A stretch of DNA of 50,610 bases from Synechococcales cyanobacterium GL140_1_metabinner_5_sub (GTDB lineage: Bacteria; Cyanobacteriota; Cyanobacteriia; Cyanobacteriales; Chamaesiphonaceae), in the NCBI GenBank assembly GCA_025359065.1, contig JANYHM010000010.1, positions 1-50,610 of the forward strand, written 5' to 3'. The notes under the pieces are model-generated. The model was not told where the DNA came from and made no database searches. It saw nothing but the letters and a program-made list of their open reading frames with translations. The translations under genes and the position numbers were made by a program. Below, in pieces: positions 2,309 to 30,361 of this stretch. Numbering within the stretch: position 1 is the stretch's first letter; every line of letters begins with the position of its first letter.

Positions 2309-3661
2309 ATGGCGGGAAATTCTGCTGACCAAATAATGACCATTAACCCCCGCGATATTGAGCATATTTTTGAACGCCTGCGATCGGGGGTAGTACCCGA
2401 TCGAGGTCTAGAAGCTTTTGCGGTGGGCATTGATATGCAGCGGGGCGAAGTTCATCGCCAGCTTACATTAGCCAGTGACAACGAAGGCACCTTCAAGTTT
2501 TTGCGGGGTGGCTATGGCTGCGGTAAGACTTTTATGTCGCGGCTAGCTTTGCTAGATGCGCAGGCTCAGGGCTTTGCGACCAGTTTTGTAGTGGTTTCTG
2601 ATAACGATTTACACTTTCATCGGTTTGATGATGTTTATCGTAAAGTAGTGCAAGAGCTAGGTACCGCATCCTGTGAGCGAGGAGCTTTAAGTGACATCAT
2701 CGATCGATGGATTGCTCGGGTAGAAGATGCCTTGGTGGCCACTGGTGCTGACGTGGAAGCAGAAGATTTTGATCAAAAAGTGCAGGCCAGAATCGAAGAA
2801 GATTTAGCATCTTTGACTGGGGGCAAAGCACCCGAAGATATGATCAGGGTACTGCGGACAATTTTTGAACTGAAACAGAAGGGCGATATTGTAGAAGCCA
2901 GCGCGCTGCTTTCTTGGCTATCGGGCAGTGAAAACGTGGCGGGAAGCGCCAAACGGTTGGCCAGCATTAAGGGTGATATTGGTAGCCGGGAAGCGCTGGA
3001 TTACCTACAGGGAATTTTGGAAATCACTAAAGCCGCAGGTTATAAGGGTTTAGTGATTGTGATTGATGAAGTAGAGACTATTTTGCGAATGCGTCATGAT
3101 GTACGCGGTAAGTCGCTAAATGGGATTCGCCAAATTTGTGATGCAGCCGATCGATATCGCGGTTTGTTTTGGGTATTTACTGGCACCCCGGAGTTTTTTG
3201 ATACCAATCGAGGGGTGGCCGGGTTGCCGCCGCTGCATGATCGAATTAAGTTTTTGCAGTCTGGCAGTTTCGCCAATCCTCGCCAGCCTCAGCTAGCTTT
3301 GCAGCCGTTTAATGCCGAGCGGTTACGGGAGGTGGCCATGAAGTTACGGGAGTTGTACCCGATCGAAGACCGACTGCCTTTGATTCAGAAAGTGACTCCA
3401 GTGTTTATTGATCGGCTGGTGGCCAGTGTCACTGCTGGTTTCCGTGGGGATGTGGGAGTGGTGCCGCGCCAGTTTCTGCGCCAGTTTGTGAATATCTTAG
3501 ATTTGGCTGCGACTTTCCCGGATTTTGATCCAATGACCGCAGAAGGGCTAGAAGTAGCTTCGGCTGAACTAAACGCCGAAGAACTCCGCATCCAGCAAGG
3601 TTTACCAGCATTCGTTCCAGAACCAGAAGATGAAAAAACTTATGAATTAGTTGAGTTCTGA
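2309..3661 (+). CDS. BrxD-like AAA-type ATPase (DUF2791 family), orphan
   Basis: 450-residue P-loop ATPase of the family that includes BrxD of BREX phage-defence systems. The Walker A motif is GGYGCGKT at residues 67-74. The Walker B motif ends in Asp253-Glu254 (LVIVIDEVETILR), and the ETILR tail is typical of this family. The N-terminal block (PRDIEHIFERLRSGVVPDRGLE) and the C-terminal helical part also fit. No other BREX gene (pglX, pglZ, brxC, a helicase) lies in the window: upstream is an alpha-dioxygenase gene and downstream is rpmH. Family membership is well supported. A defence role is only inferred, and a housekeeping DNA-related ATPase is equally possible. Confidence 0.8.
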   Translation: MAGNSADQIMTINPRDIEHIFERLRSGVVPDRGLEAFAVGIDMQRGEVHRQLTLASDNEGTFKFLRGGYGCGKTFMSRLALLDAQAQGFATSFVVVSDNDLHFHRFDDVYRKVVQELGTASCERGALSDIIDRWIARVEDALVATGADVEAEDFDQKVQARIEEDLASLTGGKAPEDMIRVLRTIFELKQKGDIVEASALLSWLSGSENVAGSAKRLASIKGDIGSREALDYLQGILEITKAAGYKGLVIVIDEVETILRMRHDVRGKSLNGIRQICDAADRYRGLFWVFTGTPEFFDTNRGVAGLPPLHDRIKFLQSGSFANPRQPQLALQPFNAERLREVAMKLRELYPIEDRLPLIQKVTPVFIDRLVASVTAGFRGDVGVVPRQFLRQFVNILDLAATFPDFDPMTAEGLEVASAELNAEELRIQQGLPAFVPEPEDEKTYELVEF

Positions 3662-3799
3662 TTTTCTTACTGCCATCAACCCACTGAAAGCCCATAATCT
3701 GATTCGCAGCATTTATCGAAAAAAGCCCTAACATCTGCTAAGCTAAAGAATTGTGGCTTTTCGGCGACAAAATCCCCACTTGTAAAACATCAACGTACC

Positions 3800-3937
3800 A
3801 TGACACAGCGTACCCTGCGCGGCACCAACCGCAAGCAAAAAAGAACCTCCGGCTTCAGAGCACGGATGCGTAGCCACACTGGCCAAAACGTGATCAAAGC
3901 CCGCCGTGCCAGAGGCCGTCGTCGCCTGTCGGTGTAG
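3800..3937 (+). CDS. rpmH: 50S ribosomal protein L34
   Basis: 45 residues, [15 protein letters not shown] at the start and [11 protein letters not shown] at the end, highly basic throughout. This is the standard L34 sequence and length. It is a small component of the large ribosomal subunit. It is followed after 2 bp by rnpA, the universal bacterial order, and the whole downstream block to YceD is probably one transcript. The 138-bp gap upstream after the BrxD-like gene should contain the promoter. Confidence 0.98.
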
Positions 3938-3939
3938 CC

Positions 3940-4338
3940 ATGTCCTTGCCGAAAACCTATCGGCTTCGACGCAGACAAGATTTTCAGCAGGTCTATCAAA
4001 AAGGTCGGCGGCGGACAGGGACACACCTGTCAGTCACAGTCTTACATAGACCCCGTTCTTTAGACAATCCTGCCGCTCAGCGTCTCGATGCCACATGCTT
4101 CGGGATTTCGATCGGCAAAAAAGTCAGCAAAAAAGCGGTAGTGCGTAATTTGATCAAAAGACGCATCAAAGGCGCTCTGCGACAATCGATCAGCCAAATT
4201 TTGCCCGGAAAAATGGTGGTGATCACCTGCAAACCGAGCATCATAGGATGTGATTATGACGAAATTTTGCGAGAATTAAAGAAATTATTGCTAACACTTG
4301 AGGTAATGCATGGGCATCAAGGAAACAACCTTCTATGA
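3940..4338 (+). CDS. rnpA: Ribonuclease P protein component
   Basis: 132 residues. The protein binds the RNase P RNA and helps it cut the 5' leader from pre-tRNA. The family signature is visible as KKAVVRNLIKRRIKGALR at about residues 68-85, with the N-terminal LPKTYRLRRRQDFQQVYQKGRR block before it. The gene starts 2 bp after rpmH, and its last 29 bases overlap the start of the next gene in another frame, indicating tight translational coupling. Confidence 0.97.
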   Translation: MSLPKTYRLRRRQDFQQVYQKGRRRTGTHLSVTVLHRPRSLDNPAAQRLDATCFGISIGKKVSKKAVVRNLIKRRIKGALRQSISQILPGKMVVITCKPSIIGCDYDEILRELKKLLLTLEVMHGHQGNNLL

Positions 4339-4720
4339 AGGCGGTCCACACATCGGCGATTTGATTTTTAATCTTCTGCTCGGGATTTTTGTTGTTTTTA
4401 TTCCCCTCTCGATCGGTGCCGTCACCAGAGCACTCTGGCTACGCTACAAAATTACTGATCGGCGGGTCTCAGTCGTAGGTGGCTGGATGGGACGCGATCG
4501 AACTGATATTATTTATGCAGACATCGCCGATGCCATTAAAATTCCTCGGGGTCTTGGCCTCTGGGGTGACATGGTATTGGTGCTGCAAGACGGCAGCCGC
4601 TTAGAAATGCGTGCCGTACCTAAATACATTGAGATGTATGAATACATCAACGAAAGAGTTCAGGCCAAAACTGGTGAACCTTTCAAATCTGTTGCTGCCA
4701 AAGCTGCTCAGGCCGCTTAG
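4310..4720 (+). CDS. PH-domain (bPH2/DUF304-type) membrane protein
   Basis: 136 residues. One hydrophobic segment at about residues 15-35 (DLIFNLLLGIFVVFIPLSIG) is followed by a beta-rich bacterial PH-like domain with YKITDRRVSVVGGWMGR and DIADAIKIPRG. A gene like this sits between rnpA and yidC in many cyanobacteria, which suggests a role at the membrane near the insertion machinery, but no biochemical function is established. It overlaps rnpA by 29 bp. The MGIKET start matches what I recall for relatives. Confidence 0.85.
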   Translation: MGIKETTFYEGGPHIGDLIFNLLLGIFVVFIPLSIGAVTRALWLRYKITDRRVSVVGGWMGRDRTDIIYADIADAIKIPRGLGLWGDMVLVLQDGSRLEMRAVPKYIEMYEYINERVQAKTGEPFKSVAAKAAQAA

Positions 4721-4810
4721 ATCAGTGATACGACTGTTCACATCATGACTGTGGCCACGACCAGTCCGATCGTCGTGGTATCCCCCTTTTCCTTTACAGC
4801 GGACTGACTA

Positions 4811-5986
4811 ATGGACTTTGGTATCGGGTTTATTTCCAACAACGTCATGTTGCCAATCCTAGATTTTTTCTATGGAATTGTGCCCAACTATGGTTTGGCG
4901 ATCGTCGCTCTTACCGTCGTAATTCGTTTTGCGCTCTACCCGCTCACTGCCGGGTCTACCCGCAGTATGCGCCGCACTCGCATCTCCCAACCCCTCATGC
5001 AAAAACGGGTGAAGGAAACACAAGAGAAGTACAAAAACGACCCGCCCAAACAGCAAGAAGAAATGAGTGCCATCTATAAAGAGTTTGGCAACCCATTGAG
5101 CGGCTGTTTACCGCTGGTGTTTCAAATGCCGGTATTGTTTGCGTTATTCGCAACTCTAAGGGGGTCGCCATTCTCTAACATCGACTACAGCATTAATGTG
5201 AACGTTGTACCCAAAGACCAAATTGCTCAAATTCAGCCTCAGCCATTTAACAGCGAACCCCACAGCATTTACTTCAGCGATAACTTCCATGCTCCAGTCG
5301 TTGCCGATATTGCTACTGGTAACGTGTTAGGCGAAGGTCAGTCAGCTAAAGTCACTTTTCAGACCGTCGATGGCAAAGCTTTATCAGAAGTATTGACTCA
5401 GTATCCTGGTACCAAGATTGCACCAACATGGACTGTAGCCAAAGGTGAAGACAAAGTTAAAATTTCTGCCGATGGTTCGATCGAAGCCCTCGCTGCTGGT
5501 GAAGCCACTATCAAAGGCACAGTGCAAGGAATTGCCGCCGATACCGGATTCCTGTTTATCGATGCCCTTGGTCACGTTGGAGCCAGAGATCCAGACGGCA
5601 CTATCCATTGGGATGTGTTGGGCATGATTATTTTCTTTGGTCTGAGCTTGTATGTGAGCCAAACTCTCACTGGGCCTAAGCCTGATCCTGCCGGTTCTGA
5701 CAACCCCGAAAAAGATGCTAGCCAGCAGGCTGTGAACAAGTTCACCCCGATTATTTTCTCGGGCATGTTCTTGTTCTTCCCCTTGCCAGCGGGAGTTTTG
5801 ATGTACATGGTGATCGGCAACGTTTTTCAGACTGTCCAGACCTACATTATTTCTAAAGAGCCGCTGCCAGCCGATCTGCAAAAGATTGTAGACTCTCAAG
5901 AAAAAGAGAAAAAAGCCAAAGAAGGCCGCGAAAGCCTGCCTTTTGAAAAAGGTAAAAATTCTAAGAAAAAGGCTACCGATTCATGA
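4811..5986 (+). CDS. yidC: Membrane protein insertase YidC/Oxa1/Alb3 family
   Basis: 391 residues. Inserts and folds membrane proteins, in cyanobacteria including thylakoid proteins. The conserved core is present: an N-terminal helix, the cytoplasmic basic loop ([20 protein letters not shown]), the [20 protein letters not shown] helix at about 94-115, and C-terminal helices ([20 protein letters not shown]). Between the second and later helices lies an insertion of about 140 residues (130-270) containing a stretch like a bacterial Ig-like domain ([20 protein letters not shown]). The tail is very lysine-rich, as expected for ribosome contact. Its last four bases overlap the next start (ATGA). 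Confidence 0.96.
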
Positions 5987-18417: not shown

Positions 18418-19836
18418 ATGCAGTCACGGGCAATGCGAGAAGGTTCGGTAGGCTTAATGCTCATTGCTGGTCTGGGTATCTTCGCGGCTGCGGCTCTCTG
18501 GCTCAGAGGCATCGGCCCCAGCAACCAGAAATATATAATAAATGCGCAGTTTACTGAAGCTGCTGGGATTCAGCAGGGCGGAGCCGTGAGGTTTCGGGGC
18601 ATTCGGGTGGGCAAAATTGCCAACATCAAACCCAGTGAAAATGGGGTAGAAGTGGCCTTAGAAATTACTGACCCTACCCTCAAAATTCCTCGTAATTCGA
18701 TCGCTGAAGTTAGTCAAACTGGCTTAATTGGTGAACCGGTGATCGAAATTGTGCCTCAAGGCTCGGTGACTTTGGCTGCCAATGCCGCTAATGCGGTAGA
18801 TAGTAGCTGTGATGGCAATGCCATTGTTTGCAATAACGCCCAAATGTCTGGCCGAGCTGGTGCTAGCTTTAATGAATTGCTGCGCAGGGCGACAGCATTA
18901 GTCAGCCGCTACGAATCTCCCGAGATTGTGGATGGTTTAAAGAAGACTTTAGCTAATGCCAGTCAGGCTGCTGCGGATATTTCGGTGCTCAGTAAAAAGT
19001 TTGGCGATTTGCCTGATTCGATTAAAAAAGAGCTAAGTACAGTGTCTGCTAGTGCTAATACTGTCACCAAATCTTTGGATACTACGGTGCGCAATGCCGA
19101 CACTGCCATTCAGAAGGTTGGTAGGGCTACCGATACGATTACGATTACGGCCAATAAATTTGGTGCTACTGCCGATAAGTTTGGAGAGACTGCTGATCAG
19201 GTAAACAAAACTGCTAATGGTATCAATACTACTGCCGCAGACTACAGCAAGTTAGCCCAGTCGGTAGATGGTTTGATTGCCGAAAATCGCCAGACTTTTA
19301 AGACTACTCTGACTAGTTTTAATGCTTTGAGCGTGGATCTACGGAAGACGGTAAATAGTCTAGACCCCACAATTAGCAAGCTAAATACCACGATTGCGAA
19401 AGTGGACTCTGATGCTTTGGCTAGAGATTTAAAAAGCGTGCTGGCAAATGCCAATAAAACCACCGAAAATCTGCGGGATGTTTCGGCTAGATTAAACAAC
19501 CCTAAAACTCTAGATACTTTGCAAGAAACTCTGAATTCTGCGAGGCTGACTTTTCAGAATGTCCAAAAAATCACCGCAGATTTAGATGAAGTCACCGGAG
19601 ATCCAGGCTTCCGTAACAATATTAAAAAGTTAGTAAATGGCTTGGGACAATTGGTATCTTCGGGAGAAACCATGGAACAGCAAATCAAGCTGGCTCAAGA
19701 TCTAGAGCCAATTAATCAGTCGTTGGCTGCCAACAGTGCTGAGTTGGCTAGGGTCTATGGCGCTACTCTGACTTTTCCACCAGTTAAGGCTACTACCGGT
19801 AAATTAACTGAAAAACCTGTGGAGAATAAGCCCTAA
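18418..19836 (+). CDS. MlaD/MCE-domain lipid-transport protein
   Basis: 472 residues. The N-terminal membrane anchor at about 8-30 (GSVGLMLIAGLGIFAAAALWL) is followed by an MCE domain (AAGIQQGGAVRFRGIRVGKI and IGEPVIEIVPQG) and a long helical tail of about 300 residues rich in coiled-coil heptads (ADKFGETADQVNKTANGINT). MlaD-type proteins form hexameric rings that pass lipids between membranes. The long tail is typical of cyanobacterial and plastid (TGD2-like) forms. The partner ABC genes are not in the window. The giant membrane protein starts 29 bp downstream on the same strand. Confidence 0.9.
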   Translation: MQSRAMREGSVGLMLIAGLGIFAAAALWLRGIGPSNQKYIINAQFTEAAGIQQGGAVRFRGIRVGKIANIKPSENGVEVALEITDPTLKIPRNSIAEVSQTGLIGEPVIEIVPQGSVTLAANAANAVDSSCDGNAIVCNNAQMSGRAGASFNELLRRATALVSRYESPEIVDGLKKTLANASQAAADISVLSKKFGDLPDSIKKELSTVSASANTVTKSLDTTVRNADTAIQKVGRATDTITITANKFGATADKFGETADQVNKTANGINTTAADYSKLAQSVDGLIAENRQTFKTTLTSFNALSVDLRKTVNSLDPTISKLNTTIAKVDSDALARDLKSVLANANKTTENLRDVSARLNNPKTLDTLQETLNSARLTFQNVQKITADLDEVTGDPGFRNNIKKLVNGLGQLVSSGETMEQQIKLAQDLEPINQSLAANSAELARVYGATLTFPPVKATTGKLTEKPVENKP

Positions 19837-19865: not shown

Positions 19866-22800
19866 ATGGCTCGGCCAGAGTCGCCAGCGCCTCAAATTGA
19901 CTTATTAACTCAGCATCCATCAATCATGAAACTCAACCCAGCTTTGAATTTTTCTGCAAATAGCCAAAATAATCGATCTCACAGTGATTCTGTTGAATAT
20001 TTGAGCTGTTTTATCCCAGAATTAATTTCACTCTTATTACTGATGGCTGGGCACAAACATTTTTCTAGCCCAGCTATCAGCGATTTGGAGAAAAGCTGTT
20101 TGTTTTTCACTGCTGTTCTATTGACCAGATTTATTTGGAATGTCGCAATATTAATTCATGGCTGTGGCCATAGCATCACTAAAGCTCTAATCGACCAAGA
20201 ATTATCTGATATAAGCATTAGTAATATTATAGAAAATAGAAATTCAGACGAATTATTCAAGTCTTTTTTGCCATTTAATCCAACATTTATACCCTTTCTC
20301 ACACAGCGATCGGCTCTCTCCATCACAGCCGGAAACAAGGCTCCCTGGAAAATTCGCATCAAAGCATCCGGTGGATTACTATTCAATTTCATTACTTTTT
20401 TACTAGGAATAATCTATCTACAGCAGCCAAGCATTTCTTTGACTGGTGAATACTCGGCGATTGCCGTGATCACCGCTAACTTACTCTTAATTCTCAGCTC
20501 TCGATCGGACATGGTAGCCATAGTTACCGGAACAGCCGATCGATTCTACTGTGGCAACTTTGGCTTTATTGGCTGGCAGCAACAAATCGACAAAAGCGAA
20601 CTGCTGCCCAAAACCCTGCTAGATATCTCCCAAACCATGGGTCGAGAAACCGAAATTCGCGGTGAACAAGCAGGCGGCGGACTGACCCTAGGCCGCGACA
20701 AAGCAGGCAACGTTGTTTTCGTCGGCCACAAAATTGTCAACCCCAAACGGGGCAACCTCACCACCACCCTAGAAGCAGCCTTTGCCAAAACCCGCCAACA
20801 AGCCGCCCGATCGGGCATCAAACCTATGGAATCTACCATTGGGGCATGGCACTATCGCTTTGGCACCAGTGGCCCCCCAGCCGTAATTGAAACCCACTGG
20901 CACGAATGGACTCCTGGTAAAATCGAAACTGTCTGGCAAATCGAAAACGGTCAGTGGATTGCCCGACCCAAAAACATCAACAACCGCATTACCCACAACG
21001 GCGACTTTAGTAGCTGGACATTATTTGGCGAACCAGTAGAAAATGGCACGATCGGACTATGGCTAGAACGAGTACTGAACATCCCCAACAATACTGTCGG
21101 TGACTCGCCGAAGCTGGCCGGAATGATGGATTTACTCATTACCCAAGGCATGTGGGCAGCCTCTGTGCGGCTGGCCTACCAATTGACCGTTGCCAGCAAT
21201 GTAGAAGATGCTTTTGGTGGCCAAGAGCCCAGTAAAACGGCTCCGAATACGGCTCCTTCCGTTGCAGATTTAAACCACTGGGCAAGTATTTTTGAAGCGG
21301 TTTTTTCGGCTCAAATCGGCGGCTTAACTATTCCAGAAAGTATTTCGACGACACAGAATCTCAATAAATTACAGCAGGATACTATCCAGCAGCTCAAATC
21401 GGAGCTGCTGCTCGCCAAGCTGACTCAAAAACAGCTCCAGGCTTTTGTAGAAGAAACCATCCAGGCGTTTCTAAAAAACAACTTGTATCAGGCCACCAAA
21501 CTCTTCCTGGCGAATGCCCAGGGCAGCTTTGGGCTAGCCACTGTTTCTACTCTAGAAACCGATCATTTGATTGTGAGCGCTTTAGGGCAGCCAATTACCT
21601 TGGGGTTCGATCGGCAAAATCAATACGCTGTCTATGCCTCGGAGCCCACTGCTGTAGATGTTGTCCTCGCCGACCAGCCCGGAAACTACCGCCTAGATCT
21701 GAACCAAAACACTGGTGAGATAGCTGTTCTCAGCGCCACCAGTCTAGTCATTTATTCTATGACCGAAGATCGGGAACTAGATGAAACTGAGATGCTGCGA
21801 CGACGGGTGCCTTTCCAGGGACATCCCTATGTGCAAACTTCCACCGGTCAAGCAACCGACCCAGTAGAAAGAGATCTGCGAGATATTCCTCGGATCATGA
21901 ACAAAATTCAGACTAATTGGGAAGATCCAGAATCACTAAATCGCCAAAGCGCCGAATACTTACTCCAGTTATTTGTTACCAAAGCCAAGTACCTCAACGA
22001 AAAACAAGAAAAATTAAAATCCCTCGGCTTGGATCCTTTACTCGCTGAATCTAGACACGTAGATTTTTTGGTAACTGGAGTGGAAAACAGTCTGTGGTTA
22101 GGGGAAAGATTTGCCGAAGATCTCAAAACAATTTACCCGGCCTTGTCGATCCAAACCATGTCATCTAACGAACTGCTGCATAAAGTGCAGTACGACTTTG
22201 ATAGCCTGAACCTAGCCTCAAAATCGATTATTTTTGGGATCAGTCAATCGGGTCAAACCTTCCCCACCCGCCAAGTTCTTCATGCTTGCGATCTATTAGT
22301 TCGTCAAAAAATTATTCAAGAATTCTTTATTCTGACCGGTGAACCTACCAGCTTTATTGGTTCACCTCTGGGTCAACCAATCTTTTTGAAAGATGCCTTT
22401 AGCCGCCGGATTTTTACTAACGAAAGTGGCCGCAGAACGGTGGAACCAGCTACTGCCTCTGTCGCAGCCATACACCAAACCTTGACCGAGCTAATATTTT
22501 ATTTGACTCGGCGAATGCAGAAGTATTTCACCGAAGGCCAACCACTGGGGATGACTCTATCACCAGCAGGTTTAATGCTGCTGGAACAAGAAAACGAATT
22601 TCTGCAGCAGAACATCACCGAAATGGTGGGAGCCAGCGCCACTGGACAATCCCAGACAAGCCATTTATATCAGCAGCTCATTCAAGGTGGCAAAACCTGG
22701 GCTGTGCATATCACTGAGGCACCCTTGGCCTGGGCAATTCATTCTCTATATGTATTGGTGACAGTGGGCTGGGCGATTCCCTTTGGCTATACGATACCTC

Positions 22801-23636
22801 TAGTCCAGACTATTTTTAGGGGCATCCAACTGATCTTGCCTCTGCCACCAGAGAGTTTGGCTTACAAAATTGTGTCTCCGATCGTCACCGTAGCCGATAT
22901 CATTATTTACATTTTTGGTGCCTGGTTCTGGACAATGGGTTTGCGCATTATCCAAAAACGCCAGCTATTTGCCCGTACCGGCAAACGCACCCTGGTAATT
23001 GGCGATACCCATTGGATTCATCAAATTCTCAAGAACTATGTAAGCAAATTGTTCTCGCTTAGCTATGGCATTGCTTCTTTAGAAATCCATGGAGATAATC
23101 CTCAAGATCATTTACTCCACAATTTTGGGCATCGAGTAGTCCGGGGCACTTTGCTGTTTTTGGGCGTACCCGATGGCCGTCGCAATCCCAAGTATCAAAG
23201 CCAAGAAAACTCAGTATTGATGACTGGCAAACAGTCCAGCGGGATTCATAACCTTAAAACCGGGCCAGAGATTGTAGCAGTGGGTGCCAATCCCAGCATT
23301 GGCAAACAGGGTTTTGCCGGTTCGATCGTCCTCCCCAGCACCCTGAGCACATTGACCAAACATCAGCCTCAAATCCCCGATAAAGTAGTGGAAACTTTAC
23401 GGGAATCGCGCTTTGGCTCTTTTAGAAGATTAATAGCTAGCTACGTATTTTTCTGGGCATTAGCCAAACAGGTAGCTTCTTTTCCAGTAATTAAATACAG
23501 CTTCTGGAAATCTCAAAGTCGCTCTAAGATAATGACTACTGCTGCACCAGTGGCAGCGATCGATCTAGATCACCCCGAAGGTGAGGAAACCTCTATTTTG
23601 ATGCGGGCTGGCATGATCAATCGAGAACAGAGCTAA
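19866..23636 (+). CDS. Giant fusion: degenerate M50-like membrane domain, class II glutamine amidotransferase, SIS domain
   Basis: 1256 codons; ATG 19926 (MKLNPALNF) is an equally good start. Residues 1-225 hold membrane helices with IHGCGH (His98 to His102), like a site-2 protease HExxH lacking its Glu, then SGGLLFNF and RSDM. At Cys229 begins CGNFGFIG, which matches the CGIVGYIG start of GlmS-type Ntn amidotransferases. WHYRFGTSG (Arg331) and THNGDF (Asn378, Gly379) match the glutamine-binding motifs. Residues about 730-900 form a SIS sugar-phosphate domain with FGISQSGQT (790-798). Two further helices lie near 955-985 and 1010-1035. GlmS needs the Cys at the N-terminus, so this Cys would have to be exposed by cleavage. 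Function not known; argH is convergent, 8 bp away. Confidence 0.75.
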   Translation: MARPESPAPQIDLLTQHPSIMKLNPALNFSANSQNNRSHSDSVEYLSCFIPELISLLLLMAGHKHFSSPAISDLEKSCLFFTAVLLTRFIWNVAILIHGCGHSITKALIDQELSDISISNIIENRNSDELFKSFLPFNPTFIPFLTQRSALSITAGNKAPWKIRIKASGGLLFNFITFLLGIIYLQQPSISLTGEYSAIAVITANLLLILSSRSDMVAIVTGTADRFYCGNFGFIGWQQQIDKSELLPKTLLDISQTMGRETEIRGEQAGGGLTLGRDKAGNVVFVGHKIVNPKRGNLTTTLEAAFAKTRQQAARSGIKPMESTIGAWHYRFGTSGPPAVIETHWHEWTPGKIETVWQIENGQWIARPKNINNRITHNGDFSSWTLFGEPVENGTIGLWLERVLNIPNNTVGDSPKLAGMMDLLITQGMWAASVRLAYQLTVASNVEDAFGGQEPSKTAPNTAPSVADLNHWASIFEAVFSAQIGGLTIPESISTTQNLNKLQQDTIQQLKSELLLAKLTQKQLQAFVEETIQAFLKNNLYQATKLFLANAQGSFGLATVSTLETDHLIVSALGQPITLGFDRQNQYAVYASEPTAVDVVLADQPGNYRLDLNQNTGEIAVLSATSLVIYSMTEDRELDETEMLRRRVPFQGHPYVQTSTGQATDPVERDLRDIPRIMNKIQTNWEDPESLNRQSAEYLLQLFVTKAKYLNEKQEKLKSLGLDPLLAESRHVDFLVTGVENSLWLGERFAEDLKTIYPALSIQTMSSNELLHKVQYDFDSLNLASKSIIFGISQSGQTFPTRQVLHACDLLVRQKIIQEFFILTGEPTSFIGSPLGQPIFLKDAFSRRIFTNESGRRTVEPATASVAAIHQTLTELIFYLTRRMQKYFTEGQPLGMTLSPAGLMLLEQENEFLQQNITEMVGASATGQSQTSHLYQQLIQGGKTWAVHITEAPLAWAIHSLYVLVTVGWAIPFGYTIPLVQTIFRGIQLILPLPPESLAYKIVSPIVTVADIIIYIFGAWFWTMGLRIIQKRQLFARTGKRTLVIGDTHWIHQILKNYVSKLFSLSYGIASLEIHGDNPQDHLLHNFGHRVVRGTLLFLGVPDGRRNPKYQSQENSVLMTGKQSSGIHNLKTGPEIVAVGANPSIGKQGFAGSIVLPSTLSTLTKHQPQIPDKVVETLRESRFGSFRRLIASYVFFWALAKQVASFPVIKYSFWKSQSRSKIMTTAAPVAAIDLDHPEGEETSILMRAGMINREQS

Positions 23637-27897: not shown

Positions 27898-27999
27898 TTC
27901 TGTATACATAAGTTCAAATGTCTTTGCAATGGCTGAGCAGAATGAGCAAACCCTGATTCTGTAAGCATCAAGAGATACATTTAGATCAGCAAATGTGGG

Positions 28000-28005
28000 T
28001 ATAAT
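28000..28005 (+). promoter_or_regulatory. Candidate -10 box of the NACHT gene
   Basis: A perfect TATAAT. No good -35 is seen 17 bp upstream (ACATTT). Transcription from here would begin near 28012, which favours the ATG at 28031 as translation start over the earlier GTG at 27995 and ATG at 28004. Confidence 0.45.
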
Positions 28006-28030
28006 GACCTTATGGACTCTGAAAAACTTT

Positions 28031-30361
28031 ATGGCTAGACCATCTCTCACTCCCACCCCTAGCGGTTTAGCAGCAGCTCGCCAAGCGTTGTCACAGAAAG
28101 GATTAACCCAAGTTGAGCTAGTGCGTGAGCTGCATTGCAGTCGGCAACCCATTTCCAACTTCTTTGGTGGCCGAGCGATCGAGCAAAGACTGTTTATTGC
28201 TATATGCAATCGGGTAGGTTTAGATTGGCAAGAAATTGCGGGGATGAAAGCCGCCGCCTCACAAGCAGTTGAGGTTATTCAGTCAAAAAACACTCAATCT
28301 TTAGTCAGACAGCAGCGAGAACAAGTACGGGCTGAGATTGCCCGTCGCTGTGGACCAATCAGAATTTTGGGCTTGAATACACCGATTAACCCTGAAGAGA
28401 TTTATACAGAAGTTAAGGTGCTGGAAAAAATCCCGGCTTATCGCTGGCAGACGATCAGCGATTCAATGGCGGAAACTAAAATTGATGATCGCTGGAGTTT
28501 GGGTAAAGTTGACCTTGATCGTATTCCTGGCATCAAAGCTTTAGAAGAATATAAGCTGCTAATTTTATCTGGAAAGCCAGGTGCTGGCAAAACAACTTTT
28601 TTACAGCACTTAGCGACTAAATGTAGTCAAGGAGAACTAGCTACCGATAGCTCTCACTGTGCCTTCGGCGATCGGGTGCCGATAATCTTGAGTCTGAAAG
28701 ATTGGTCACAAGCAGACCCTGAGCAATCGCTGTTAGAATACGTTGAGCATAGCTATGGAACTGGTTCAACTATGGCAATCTGGAAACAAATTTTTCAGGC
28801 TGGCCAAGGTCTGCTGCTACTTGATGGTCTAGATGAAATCCCCAAGGCACAGGAAGAAAGGATTCTGGGCAAAATGCGGGAATTTGTAAATGAATTTAAT
28901 GACAACTACATTGTTATTTCTTGCCGGGTCGCAGTTTGGGAAGGAGTACATGGCTTTGAGCGATTTACTGAAGTAGAACTGGCTGATTTTGATGACGAAC
29001 AAATTGCCAAATTTATCTACAAATGGTTCAAAGATAAACCCCAAGGCCAAGAGCTAGCCGCCAAGTTCCTGAGCGAATTAGCTCGCAACCCAGAACTCAA
29101 AGATTTAGTAGTAACTCCTATTTTGTTACCGTTAGTCTGCTTAGCTTTTGAAGATCAAGGTACTTGCCCTCATACCAGAACTAGGCTGTATCAGGTAGGC
29201 ATTGAGATTTTGTTGACTAAGTGGGATGATCGTAGAGGCATTGATCGATATCCGGTATATCGCTGGCTTTCCCCAGAATTGAAAATGAAACTGCTAGCTA
29301 GAATTGCGCTGCAAACTTTACAAGAACGCCAATATTTTTTTACAGGTGCAGTTGTTGAAGAATACATTCTGGAATTTTTAAAGCAGCATACTCAAATTGA
29401 ACCGCAAGAAATTGATGCTCGATCGATCCTCAAGGCAATTGTGGCTCAACATGGACTGTTGGTAGAAAGATCTAGAGATATTTATTCTTTTTCTCATCTC
29501 ACCTTCCATGAATACTTTGCAGCGCGGGATTTAATACCAACTCCTACCCATCATCCAGCGCCAGAATCATTAGCAGTTTTAATAGATCATTTAGACGATG
29601 ATTCTACCTGGCGGGAAGTCTGGCTATTGGCTGTAGAACTATTGAGTCATGGTAGTCGCCTACTTCAGCCTTTACAGAAGAATGTTTGGGAGTTAATCAA
29701 TGAGAATCCAGAAATAGCCGAGTATTTGCGCCAGCTTCCCAAGATTGCTCCTGAGTTAGATCAAATGCGTCAGCCACTGACTCCGGCTGCTTGTCTGGCG
29801 CTGCGCTTTGATATCGATTTCGACCTAGACCACAATCGATCAGTAGCCTTTGCGCTTGATCCGCGCAGCAGTATTTTTGTAGCGGCCAGCTTTGCTCATC
29901 GCATGTTAGGAACCAATTTGCAGCAGGCGATCGAACAGGCCGAAGCAGATCCACAAATAGCAGCAGCGAAGACGGCAAATGAAGCGATGAGGTTAGTAAT
30001 TGAAAATGTCCTAAAAGATCAAGGACTGGCTACAGAAAATCACCATAAACTAGAGGAACTCAAGCAAAAGTATGAACAGGTCGGTAGTTTAACTAATGAT
30101 GAGGAAGTGTTAGATCAAATGGCCACTGATGCCCGTACTCTTGCTCGCAATCAAGTCAGAATGGGTGATTTGGGTCATAGAACCGAAGATTTCAGAAAAA
30201 CTCTCAAAAAATACTACAATAGAGTCAGCATCGTTGTAGAATGTCTACAAAATCGTGATTGTCAGATGTCGCTCACTGAGCGAAAGCAGTTAAAAGAGTT
30301 TTTGTTTCAGGCTAAAGATGCAAGTGATTTAGAGACAAATGGAGCAAGGCTGACTTTTTAA
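28031..30361 (+). CDS. HTH-NACHT STAND NTPase
   Basis: 776 residues from ATG 28031. The N-terminus is an HTH-like domain (LSQKGLTQVELVRELHCSRQ, residues about 15-60). The central NACHT domain has Walker A GKPGAGKTT at 181-189, Walker B LLLLDGLDE at 261-269, and the later FSHLTFHEYFAARDL block typical of NACHT winged-helix ends. The C-terminus of about 270 residues is helical and charged, without WD40 or TPR repeats. Proteins of this plan are NLR-like; several bacterial NACHT proteins defend against phage, and others regulate transcription. No nuclease, protease or TIR effector is fused, so the HTH may be the output. It is divergent from the sigma-like gene. Confidence 0.88.
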   Translation: MARPSLTPTPSGLAAARQALSQKGLTQVELVRELHCSRQPISNFFGGRAIEQRLFIAICNRVGLDWQEIAGMKAAASQAVEVIQSKNTQSLVRQQREQVRAEIARRCGPIRILGLNTPINPEEIYTEVKVLEKIPAYRWQTISDSMAETKIDDRWSLGKVDLDRIPGIKALEEYKLLILSGKPGAGKTTFLQHLATKCSQGELATDSSHCAFGDRVPIILSLKDWSQADPEQSLLEYVEHSYGTGSTMAIWKQIFQAGQGLLLLDGLDEIPKAQEERILGKMREFVNEFNDNYIVISCRVAVWEGVHGFERFTEVELADFDDEQIAKFIYKWFKDKPQGQELAAKFLSELARNPELKDLVVTPILLPLVCLAFEDQGTCPHTRTRLYQVGIEILLTKWDDRRGIDRYPVYRWLSPELKMKLLARIALQTLQERQYFFTGAVVEEYILEFLKQHTQIEPQEIDARSILKAIVAQHGLLVERSRDIYSFSHLTFHEYFAARDLIPTPTHHPAPESLAVLIDHLDDDSTWREVWLLAVELLSHGSRLLQPLQKNVWELINENPEIAEYLRQLPKIAPELDQMRQPLTPAACLALRFDIDFDLDHNRSVAFALDPRSSIFVAASFAHRMLGTNLQQAIEQAEADPQIAAAKTANEAMRLVIENVLKDQGLATENHHKLEELKQKYEQVGSLTNDEEVLDQMATDARTLARNQVRMGDLGHRTEDFRKTLKKYYNRVSIVVECLQNRDCQMSLTERKQLKEFLFQAKDASDLETNGARLTF

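Follow-up and report, generated by a model that had tools for sequence, protein, structure and literature searches.

A Cyanobacterial GlmS-Like Amidotransferase with an Internal Catalytic Cysteine Probably Freed by Cleavage from a Membrane Prodomain

The window analyzed here is a 50,610-nucleotide stretch of the Synechococcales cyanobacterium GL140_1_metabinner_5_sub (assembly GCA_025359065.1, contig JANYHM010000010.1), and it carries, at positions 19866-23636 of the + strand, a 1256-aa open reading frame (ORF) with an ATG start and no internal stop. Based on comparison with homologues, we propose that this gene probably encodes a membrane-anchored precursor of an enzyme that joins a class II glutamine amidotransferase (GATase) to an SIS domain, and that the precursor is cut at Cys229, most likely by its own N-terminal nucleophile (Ntn) domain. 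That the mature enzyme starts at Cys229 through proteolysis, whichever agent cuts, is very probable. The reading frame and four motifs given in a preliminary description of this DNA were found again on re-reading the sequence: CGNFGFIG from Cys229, WHYRFGTSG at residues 328-336, THNGDF at 376-381, and ISQSGQT at 792-798. IHGCGH lies at residues 97-102. The motifs stand in GlmS order, as had been claimed, but not in GlmS spacing, since the Cys-to-Arg distance is 102 residues here and 71 in the genome's own GlmS (C1 and R72). The start codon is uncertain, as residues 1-40 are unconserved and Met21 is an alternative. We compared 39 usable rows, 33 from homologues that have the N-terminal domain (fused) and 6 from homologues without it (standalone); four of the fused rows form a clade that we read below as pseudoenzymes. 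The features of the gene are as follows.

19866..23636, + strand: whole gene, 1256 aa, with putative membrane prodomain, split GATase, SIS domain, membrane helices, and conserved C-terminal domain
19866..20549, + strand: residues 1-228, site-2-protease-like membrane domain without the catalytic Glu, probable prodomain (alignment, 33 fused rows, hydropathy)
20157..20171, + strand: HGCGH, residues 98-102, with putative metal ligands H98 and H102 and Gly at the catalytic-Glu position
20508..20510, + strand: Asp215, putative third metal ligand, 14 residues before Cys229 (33/33 fused rows)
20547..20552, + strand: Tyr228/Cys229 junction, predicted cleavage point; Cys229 is the putative catalytic nucleophile
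20550..21185, + strand: residues 229-440, N-terminal part of the class II GATase (Ntn) domain (profile alignment from GlmS residue 1)
20856..20858, + strand: Arg331, which we take to be the equivalent of GlmS Arg73 (E. coli numbering); 35/35 rows outside the pseudoenzyme clade
20997..21002, + strand: Asn378-Gly379, presumably the oxyanion-hole pair; 35/35 rows outside the pseudoenzyme clade
21102..21104, + strand: Asp413, which we take to be a possible equivalent of GlmS Asp123 (matched by eye); 35/35 rows outside the pseudoenzyme clade, Ala in 4/4 within it
21186..21455, + strand: residues 441-530, variable, probably helical insert in the GATase (gap in the GlmS alignment; helices in a low-confidence model)
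21453..21800, + strand: residues 530-645, C-terminal part of the GATase domain (hhalign versus GlmS 131-232)
21843..22391, + strand: residues about 660-842, SIS domain with SQSGQT at 793-798 (structure search matches)
22710..22952, + strand: residues 949-980 and 1002-1029, two hydrophobic stretches that likely anchor the protein in the membrane (hydropathy)
22971..23549, + strand: residues 1036-1228, strongly conserved domain ending WKSQSR..MTTAAP (27-row alignment)

All six standalone homologues begin Met-Cys-Gly-Asn-Phe-Gly, exactly at the position of Cys229, so that the catalytic Cys is residue 2. Normal Met removal would expose a Cys at this position. In five of the six genes an in-frame stop lies 2 to 5 codons upstream of the Met-Cys start, and the sixth (L042) has no ATG, GTG, or TTG within 29 open codons upstream. 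The N-terminal Cys is given by gene structure in the standalone homologues; in the window protein it would need proteolysis. A profile search for a separately encoded N-terminal domain in G613, G627, G487, and G311, the genomes in which the standalone form alone was seen, gave no match at E <= 1.

In the fused homologues, the distance from Asp215 to Cys229 is exactly 14 in 33/33 rows. The second residue before the junction (P2) is Phe in 27 of these rows and Leu in 6, and the residue directly before it (P1) is Tyr in 20, His in 6, Asn in 4, and Cys in 3. Thus, of the two residues whose invariance the preliminary description had proposed to check, Cys229 is invariant (39/39 rows), but the Tyr before it is present in only 20/33 fused rows. 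The codon before the Cys is TAC, TAT, CAC, CAT, TGT, AAC, or AAT in every fused row and is never ATG, GTG, or TTG, which rules out an internal translation start at Cys229. In 29/33 rows there are in-frame ATG, GTG, or TTG codons at distances of 6 to 40 codons before the Cys (in the window gene, an ATG 13 codons upstream), but initiation there would leave the Cys non-N-terminal. Since no start codon directly precedes the Cys in any fused row, Cys229 could become N-terminal only through proteolysis.

The tree of the 39 rows requires four changes between the fused and standalone forms, and well-supported branches force at least three of them. On one side of this tree all 12 rows are fused, as are the deepest two rows on the opposite side (the window protein and L008), and for this reason the fused form is likely ancestral, an order that rests on the midpoint root. 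Distances within the N-terminal domain correlate with distances within the remainder of the protein (Spearman 0.80, 528 pairs), which is consistent with one old fusion followed by several losses; the N-terminal domain tree matches the other tree only partly, and L008 moves. We read this history as about four independent losses of the N-terminal domain, each placing the start exactly at Cys229. The earlier idea of a removable propeptide is strengthened by these six homologues (about four independent events), which do without it and start Met-Cys. Taken together, the Met-Cys starts, the switches of form, and the fixed junction without a start codon argue that Cys229, after proteolysis, is most likely the first residue of the mature enzyme.

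The window protein scores 17.5 and 12.9 bits against the NCBIfam GlmS models, whose cut-offs are 381 and 418; for GlmS TIGR01135, the curated cut-off of 418 bits is thus not reached (12.9 bits). The likeness to GlmS nevertheless exceeds chance: all 27 of the first-aligned members match these models at E <= 0.1 (best, 6e-9), and C229, R331, N378, G379, and QSGQT (794-798) are invariant across these 27 rows. When residues 229-645 of the larger set, taken as a profile, were aligned with residues 1-232 of cyanobacterial GlmS, the hhalign probability was 90 (E 1.6e-6; reversed control, 0.2), and Cys229 was paired with GlmS Cys1, residue 1 on residue 1. Residues 530-645 alone align with GlmS 131-232 at a probability of 93 (E 3e-7; reversed control, 0.4), and the whole 27-row profile reaches 64.5 versus GlmS in an alignment confined to the second part of the GATase. 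The GATase is interrupted at about 440-530 by an insert that measures very roughly 100 residues. In the larger-set hhalign runs versus GlmS and the M50 groups (below), realignment was set more loosely for the forward alignments than for the reversed controls, a difference that we take to alter the displayed alignment rather than the probability. The Arg, Asn-Gly, and Asp active-site set accompanies the Cys in 35/39 rows, including the window protein, and Arg331, Asn378, Gly379, and Asp413 never vary in the 35 rows outside one clade, fused or standalone. The pairing of Cys229 with Cys1 and these invariant residues bear out the earlier proposal of a GlmS-type GATase with an internal catalytic Cys. 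A Pfam scan of the window protein gave no domain over threshold (the sole chance-level match had E 0.28), and PDB sequence searches with the single sequence and with the profile gave nothing at E <= 1.

Support for the SIS domain comes from structure comparison. We built AlphaFold models from 3-row alignments; that of residues 640-1256 has a mean pLDDT of 37, rising to 57-77 in blocks at about residues 700-789, and a structure search with it listed 50 structures, GlmS and GFAT included, that are all SIS-type (most of them by title), with Z values of 6.0-7.6. The Z values are modest, and the weight comes from the uniformity of the list, by which this part looks like the SIS domain named in the preliminary description. 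That description had also placed membrane helices after the SIS part, in agreement with the hydrophobic stretches at residues 949-980 and 1002-1029. Residues 1036-1228, among the most conserved parts of the family, have no detectable GlmS match by profile and matched no known domain. The C-terminal tail of GlmS takes part in catalysis. The WKSQSR..MTTAAP tail degenerates in the pseudoenzyme clade, and because of this we suggest that it may, by analogy, have a catalytic role.

The clade consists of L135, L146, L147, and L148 (4/39 rows), which are fused and have long open frames. Arg331, Asn378, and Asp413 are replaced in all of them, and so are two threonines, Thr798 of the SIS motif and Thr1225 of the C-terminal tail; Cys229, Gly379, the putative His/His/Asp ligand set, and the membrane domain are retained. 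There are 153 positions that are invariant in the 35 intact rows, and 17 of these are changed in all four clade members, 12 of them in the GATase parts (12/70 versus 5/83 elsewhere; Fisher p 0.039), a weak enrichment. Because Arg331, Asn378, and Asp413 go together in a nested clade, we read these rows as one pseudoenzyme branch that arose by secondary loss, and the joint loss suggests that the three residues work as a set elsewhere. Homologues lacking the Cys, Arg, and Asn-Gly residues had been named beforehand as evidence that would count against a GATase. Those without the Arg and Asn make up this one nested clade, and they have kept the Cys and Gly.

Hydropathy peaks of the N-terminal domain lie at residues 43-61, 79-97, 167-185, and about 192-217, and H98, H102, D215, R88, W91, K166, and G222 are invariant in the 33 fused rows. 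As in the site-2 proteases (MEROPS M50; SpoIVFB and RseP), an HxxxH in an early helix, a Gly..Asn region, and an Asp in a later helix follow one another in the same order, and the His/His/Asp ligand pattern of these proteases, here with putative metal ligands, is found in 33/33 rows. The catalytic Glu of site-2 proteases has no counterpart, however: position 99 is Gly in 32/33 fused rows, including the window protein (HGxGH), and Glu in one (L018, HELGH). The NxxPxxxxD motif of the cyanobacterial M50 proteins compared is also not present. Passages of PMC11486902 give H43, H47, and D137 as the zinc ligands of SpoIVFB, which correspond by pattern to H98, H102, and D215, and report that the E44Q mutation abolishes cleavage. 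The profile match is weak. Versus five cyanobacterial M50 groups and a pooled set, the hhalign probability is 4.6-40 (reversed controls, 0.2-6), with one group (S2P505) no better than its control (4.6 versus 5.2); a 21-row profile of the domain gives 8-68, mostly over 11-31 columns round HxxxH, and Pfam M50 had no match at E <= 1 in 27 members. The degenerate HxxxH domain without Glu of the preliminary description is supported, and its true membership in M50 is a possibility (hhalign 4.6-68). M50 homology is suggestive, and we call the domain site-2-protease-like, not M50; it is probably a dead-protease-like prodomain.

In the mechanism that we propose, the precursor would insert in the membrane, with residues 1-228 forming a site-2-protease-like membrane domain that has the putative metal ligands and lacks the catalytic Glu. 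The chain would leave the last helix, run through 14 residues of fixed length, and arrive at Phe/Leu-Xaa-Cys229, where cleavage of the Xaa228-Cys229 bond would free the alpha-amino group of Cys229 and leave CGNFG as the mature start. The cutter would most likely be the Ntn domain itself, as with other Ntn hydrolases. Passages of PMC9140057 state that every known Ntn hydrolase cleaves itself at the nucleophile and that class II members autocatalytically shed a few residues that precede the Cys; in three probable PurF ORFs from the same order, 30-53 open codons (start codons unassigned) precede CGVFG. The role of the membrane domain would be to retain the precursor at its site and to time its maturation. 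The freed Cys would hydrolyze glutamine, and the SIS part would transfer the ammonia to a substrate resembling a sugar phosphate. It is possible, though doubtful, that a pseudo-site-2-protease acts as a built-in prodomain in a stricter sense, in which the metal site and the 14-residue linker position the Xaa-Cys bond and a membrane or kinase signal triggers maturation.

The constant geometry at the junction also fits a different agent. If the cut were made by the site-2-protease-like domain, Glu-less as it is, or by a separate protease of the host acting there, and not by the Ntn domain itself, the invariant 14-residue spacing from Asp215 would put the Tyr228-Cys229 bond near the metal site, and the retention of H98, H102, and D215 even in the pseudoenzyme clade, the HELGH of L018, and the fit to the SpoIVFB ligands would be explained. 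However, with Gly in place of the Glu in 32/33 rows, a position at which the E44Q change inactivates SpoIVFB (passages of PMC11486902), and with M50 homology no more than suggestive, we consider this unlikely. Alternatively, the fused forms might never be cut: the Cys would then stay blocked by the N-terminal domain, the fused protein would sense glutamine or amino sugars at the membrane, and the standalone forms would be the sole enzymes. Signaling genes are often nearby, and a degenerate clade exists, as a sensor would allow. A blocked site would not need active-site conservation, though, and 29/29 intact fused rows keep Cys, Arg331, Asn378, Gly379, and Asp413 just as the standalone rows do; the repeated origin of Met-Cys starts also speaks against a sensor, which we regard as quite improbable. 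Finally, a patchy distribution and broken copies or fragments (L002/L035, L026, L131, L004/L007, and L027-L029) might be taken to indicate a nonfunctional or decaying fusion of no importance. This is very improbable given 39 rows with long open frames, 39-55% identity to the window protein in the rows checked for it, and 153 positions invariant in the intact rows.

Several results weigh against self-cleavage at Cys229 of a GlmS-like enzyme. The evidence for cleavage is at the sequence level, and P1 (Tyr, His, Asn, or Cys) differs from the Ala found in the probable PurF ORFs. The pseudoenzyme clade, which keeps the Cys and the fused domain, warns that the fusion can persist without a need for activity. 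The midpoint root of the smaller, 27-row tree falls on a standalone row with a long branch, L025. The two AlphaFold models are of poor quality (mean pLDDT 40 and 37); the pLDDT-40 model gave no usable match for an Ntn fold, and the structure search with it listed no recognized Ntn or M50 protein, at a confidence too low for fold inference. The first GATase half alone matches GlmS weakly (probability 17.7 with 27 rows and 4.8 with the larger set), the profile of residues 655-850 versus GlmS reaches 6.0 (reversed, 2.7), and a second GlmS-like SIS domain, sought by profile in residues 1030-1256 and 1030-1235, was not found.

Compared with known systems, the protein is like GlmS/GFAT (TIGR01135) in having a class II GATase with Cys, Arg, and Asn-Gly in order, followed by an SIS domain with S-Q-S-G-x-T, and unlike GlmS in its bit scores far under the cut-off, its GATase insert, the hydrophobic stretches after the SIS part, the lack of a detected second SIS domain, and the fused membrane prodomain. 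It resembles PurF and glutamate synthase in that the catalytic Cys lies behind residues that need removal. The propeptides of those enzymes are short and soluble, whereas about 170-228 residues of membrane domain precede the Cys here. Acid ceramidase and NAAA are lysosomal, belong to a different Ntn subfamily, and have no membrane prodomain. The likeness to these two enzymes is that there an internal Cys is made N-terminal by self-cleavage of a long precursor, as passages of PMC9140057 describe. A literature search with partial coverage (titles and abstract openings) gave no description of this architecture or family; amidotransferases with removable propeptides are known, but a Glu-less protease-like membrane domain in that role was not found in the literature searched. 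A whole membrane domain in the place of a propeptide, apparently lost about four times with the start landing on the catalytic Cys, amounts to a natural experiment, and it is from these repeated losses that precise cleavage is predicted. If the prediction holds, this would be a zymogen-type amidotransferase and would give a use to a dead intramembrane protease; if maturation is also switched by a signal, a regulated cut at the membrane would govern nitrogen transfer.

The window gene is a single copy in its genome (3.92 Mb, 99.8% complete), which separately encodes an ordinary GlmS and a second GlmS-search match that is probably PurF. The family is patchy among cyanobacteria. Matches were found in 4/292 genomes of a phylum sample (two weak and apparently GlmS itself), in 25/388 of an order sample (of which at least two, G293 and G518, have GlmS only and three, G378, G422, and G497, have C-terminal fragments alone), in 5/42 of one family sample, in 12/299 of a second order, and, by a stricter phylum profile search, in 3/386 genomes, one of which (G289) has pieces only. 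Named carriers include Pleurocapsa sp. CCALA 161 and a Hyellaceae MAG (metagenome-assembled genome). Relatives sought among viral contigs and plasmids were not found. Before counting, we left out L003 (same gene as L018), L033 (copy of L015), the broken L002/L035 (frameshifted), L024 (split gene), and L026 (internal stop), the fragments L004/L007, L027-L029, and L149, and L005/L006/L030/L031, which appear to be true GlmS. A few additional copies and pieces, such as a third copy in G366, were unused. In L131 (G429 contig 1), the gene is split by an inserted 551-aa ORF on the opposite strand, and this and the broken copies L002/L035 and L026 suggest rapid gain and loss.

Upstream of the window gene lies one candidate for cotranscription.

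18418..19836, + strand: mlaD-like gene (Pfam MlaD), ending 29 bases upstream of the window gene, possibly cotranscribed

This gene has no homologue among the other 30 loci clustered, and same-strand close upstream partners differ between loci. A response-regulator/histidine-kinase gene lies upstream with a gap of -1 to 9 bases in L127, L128, L129, and the standalone copy of L125 and with a gap of 426 bases in L113 (the L129 partner was assigned by clustering, and the others were scanned with Pfam). In L128 a gene (3648-5771) lying in line with a standalone homologue encodes HisKA, receiver, and HAMP domains and a ParA/MinD-type ATPase in one chain. A Ser/Thr kinase cluster is found 43-72 bases upstream in L119, L120, and L121; in L109 and L112 it lies one gene farther away. 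Domain scans of this cluster cover the L119 member (2431-4815), which also has a periplasmic-binding-protein domain, and the L109 member, which is without it. A TPR-CHAT gene (L105 4655-7435) lies 234 bases upstream in L105, and an NB-ARC-WD40 type gene (L125 4931-8497), assigned by clustering, lies 117 bases upstream of the fused copy in L125; its scanned relative (L118 12105-15665) is downstream of the family gene on the other strand. In the second order, a divergent neighbor of 230-246 residues adjoins 10/12 copies and is Crp/Fnr-like in 3/4 scanned, that of L150 having matched no family. PADLOC gave no match for three family proteins; among the neighboring genes, kinase and repeat models were matched, with the L119 kinase matching PD-T4-6 models. 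Judged by gene content, these neighborhoods look like signaling or conflict islands, and the enzyme appears tied to no fixed system; because no single partner is conserved, we make no claim of a defense system. Elsewhere in the window, positions 27995-30361 encode a 788-aa protein that reads, by eye, like a helix-turn-helix plus NACHT-type NTPase.

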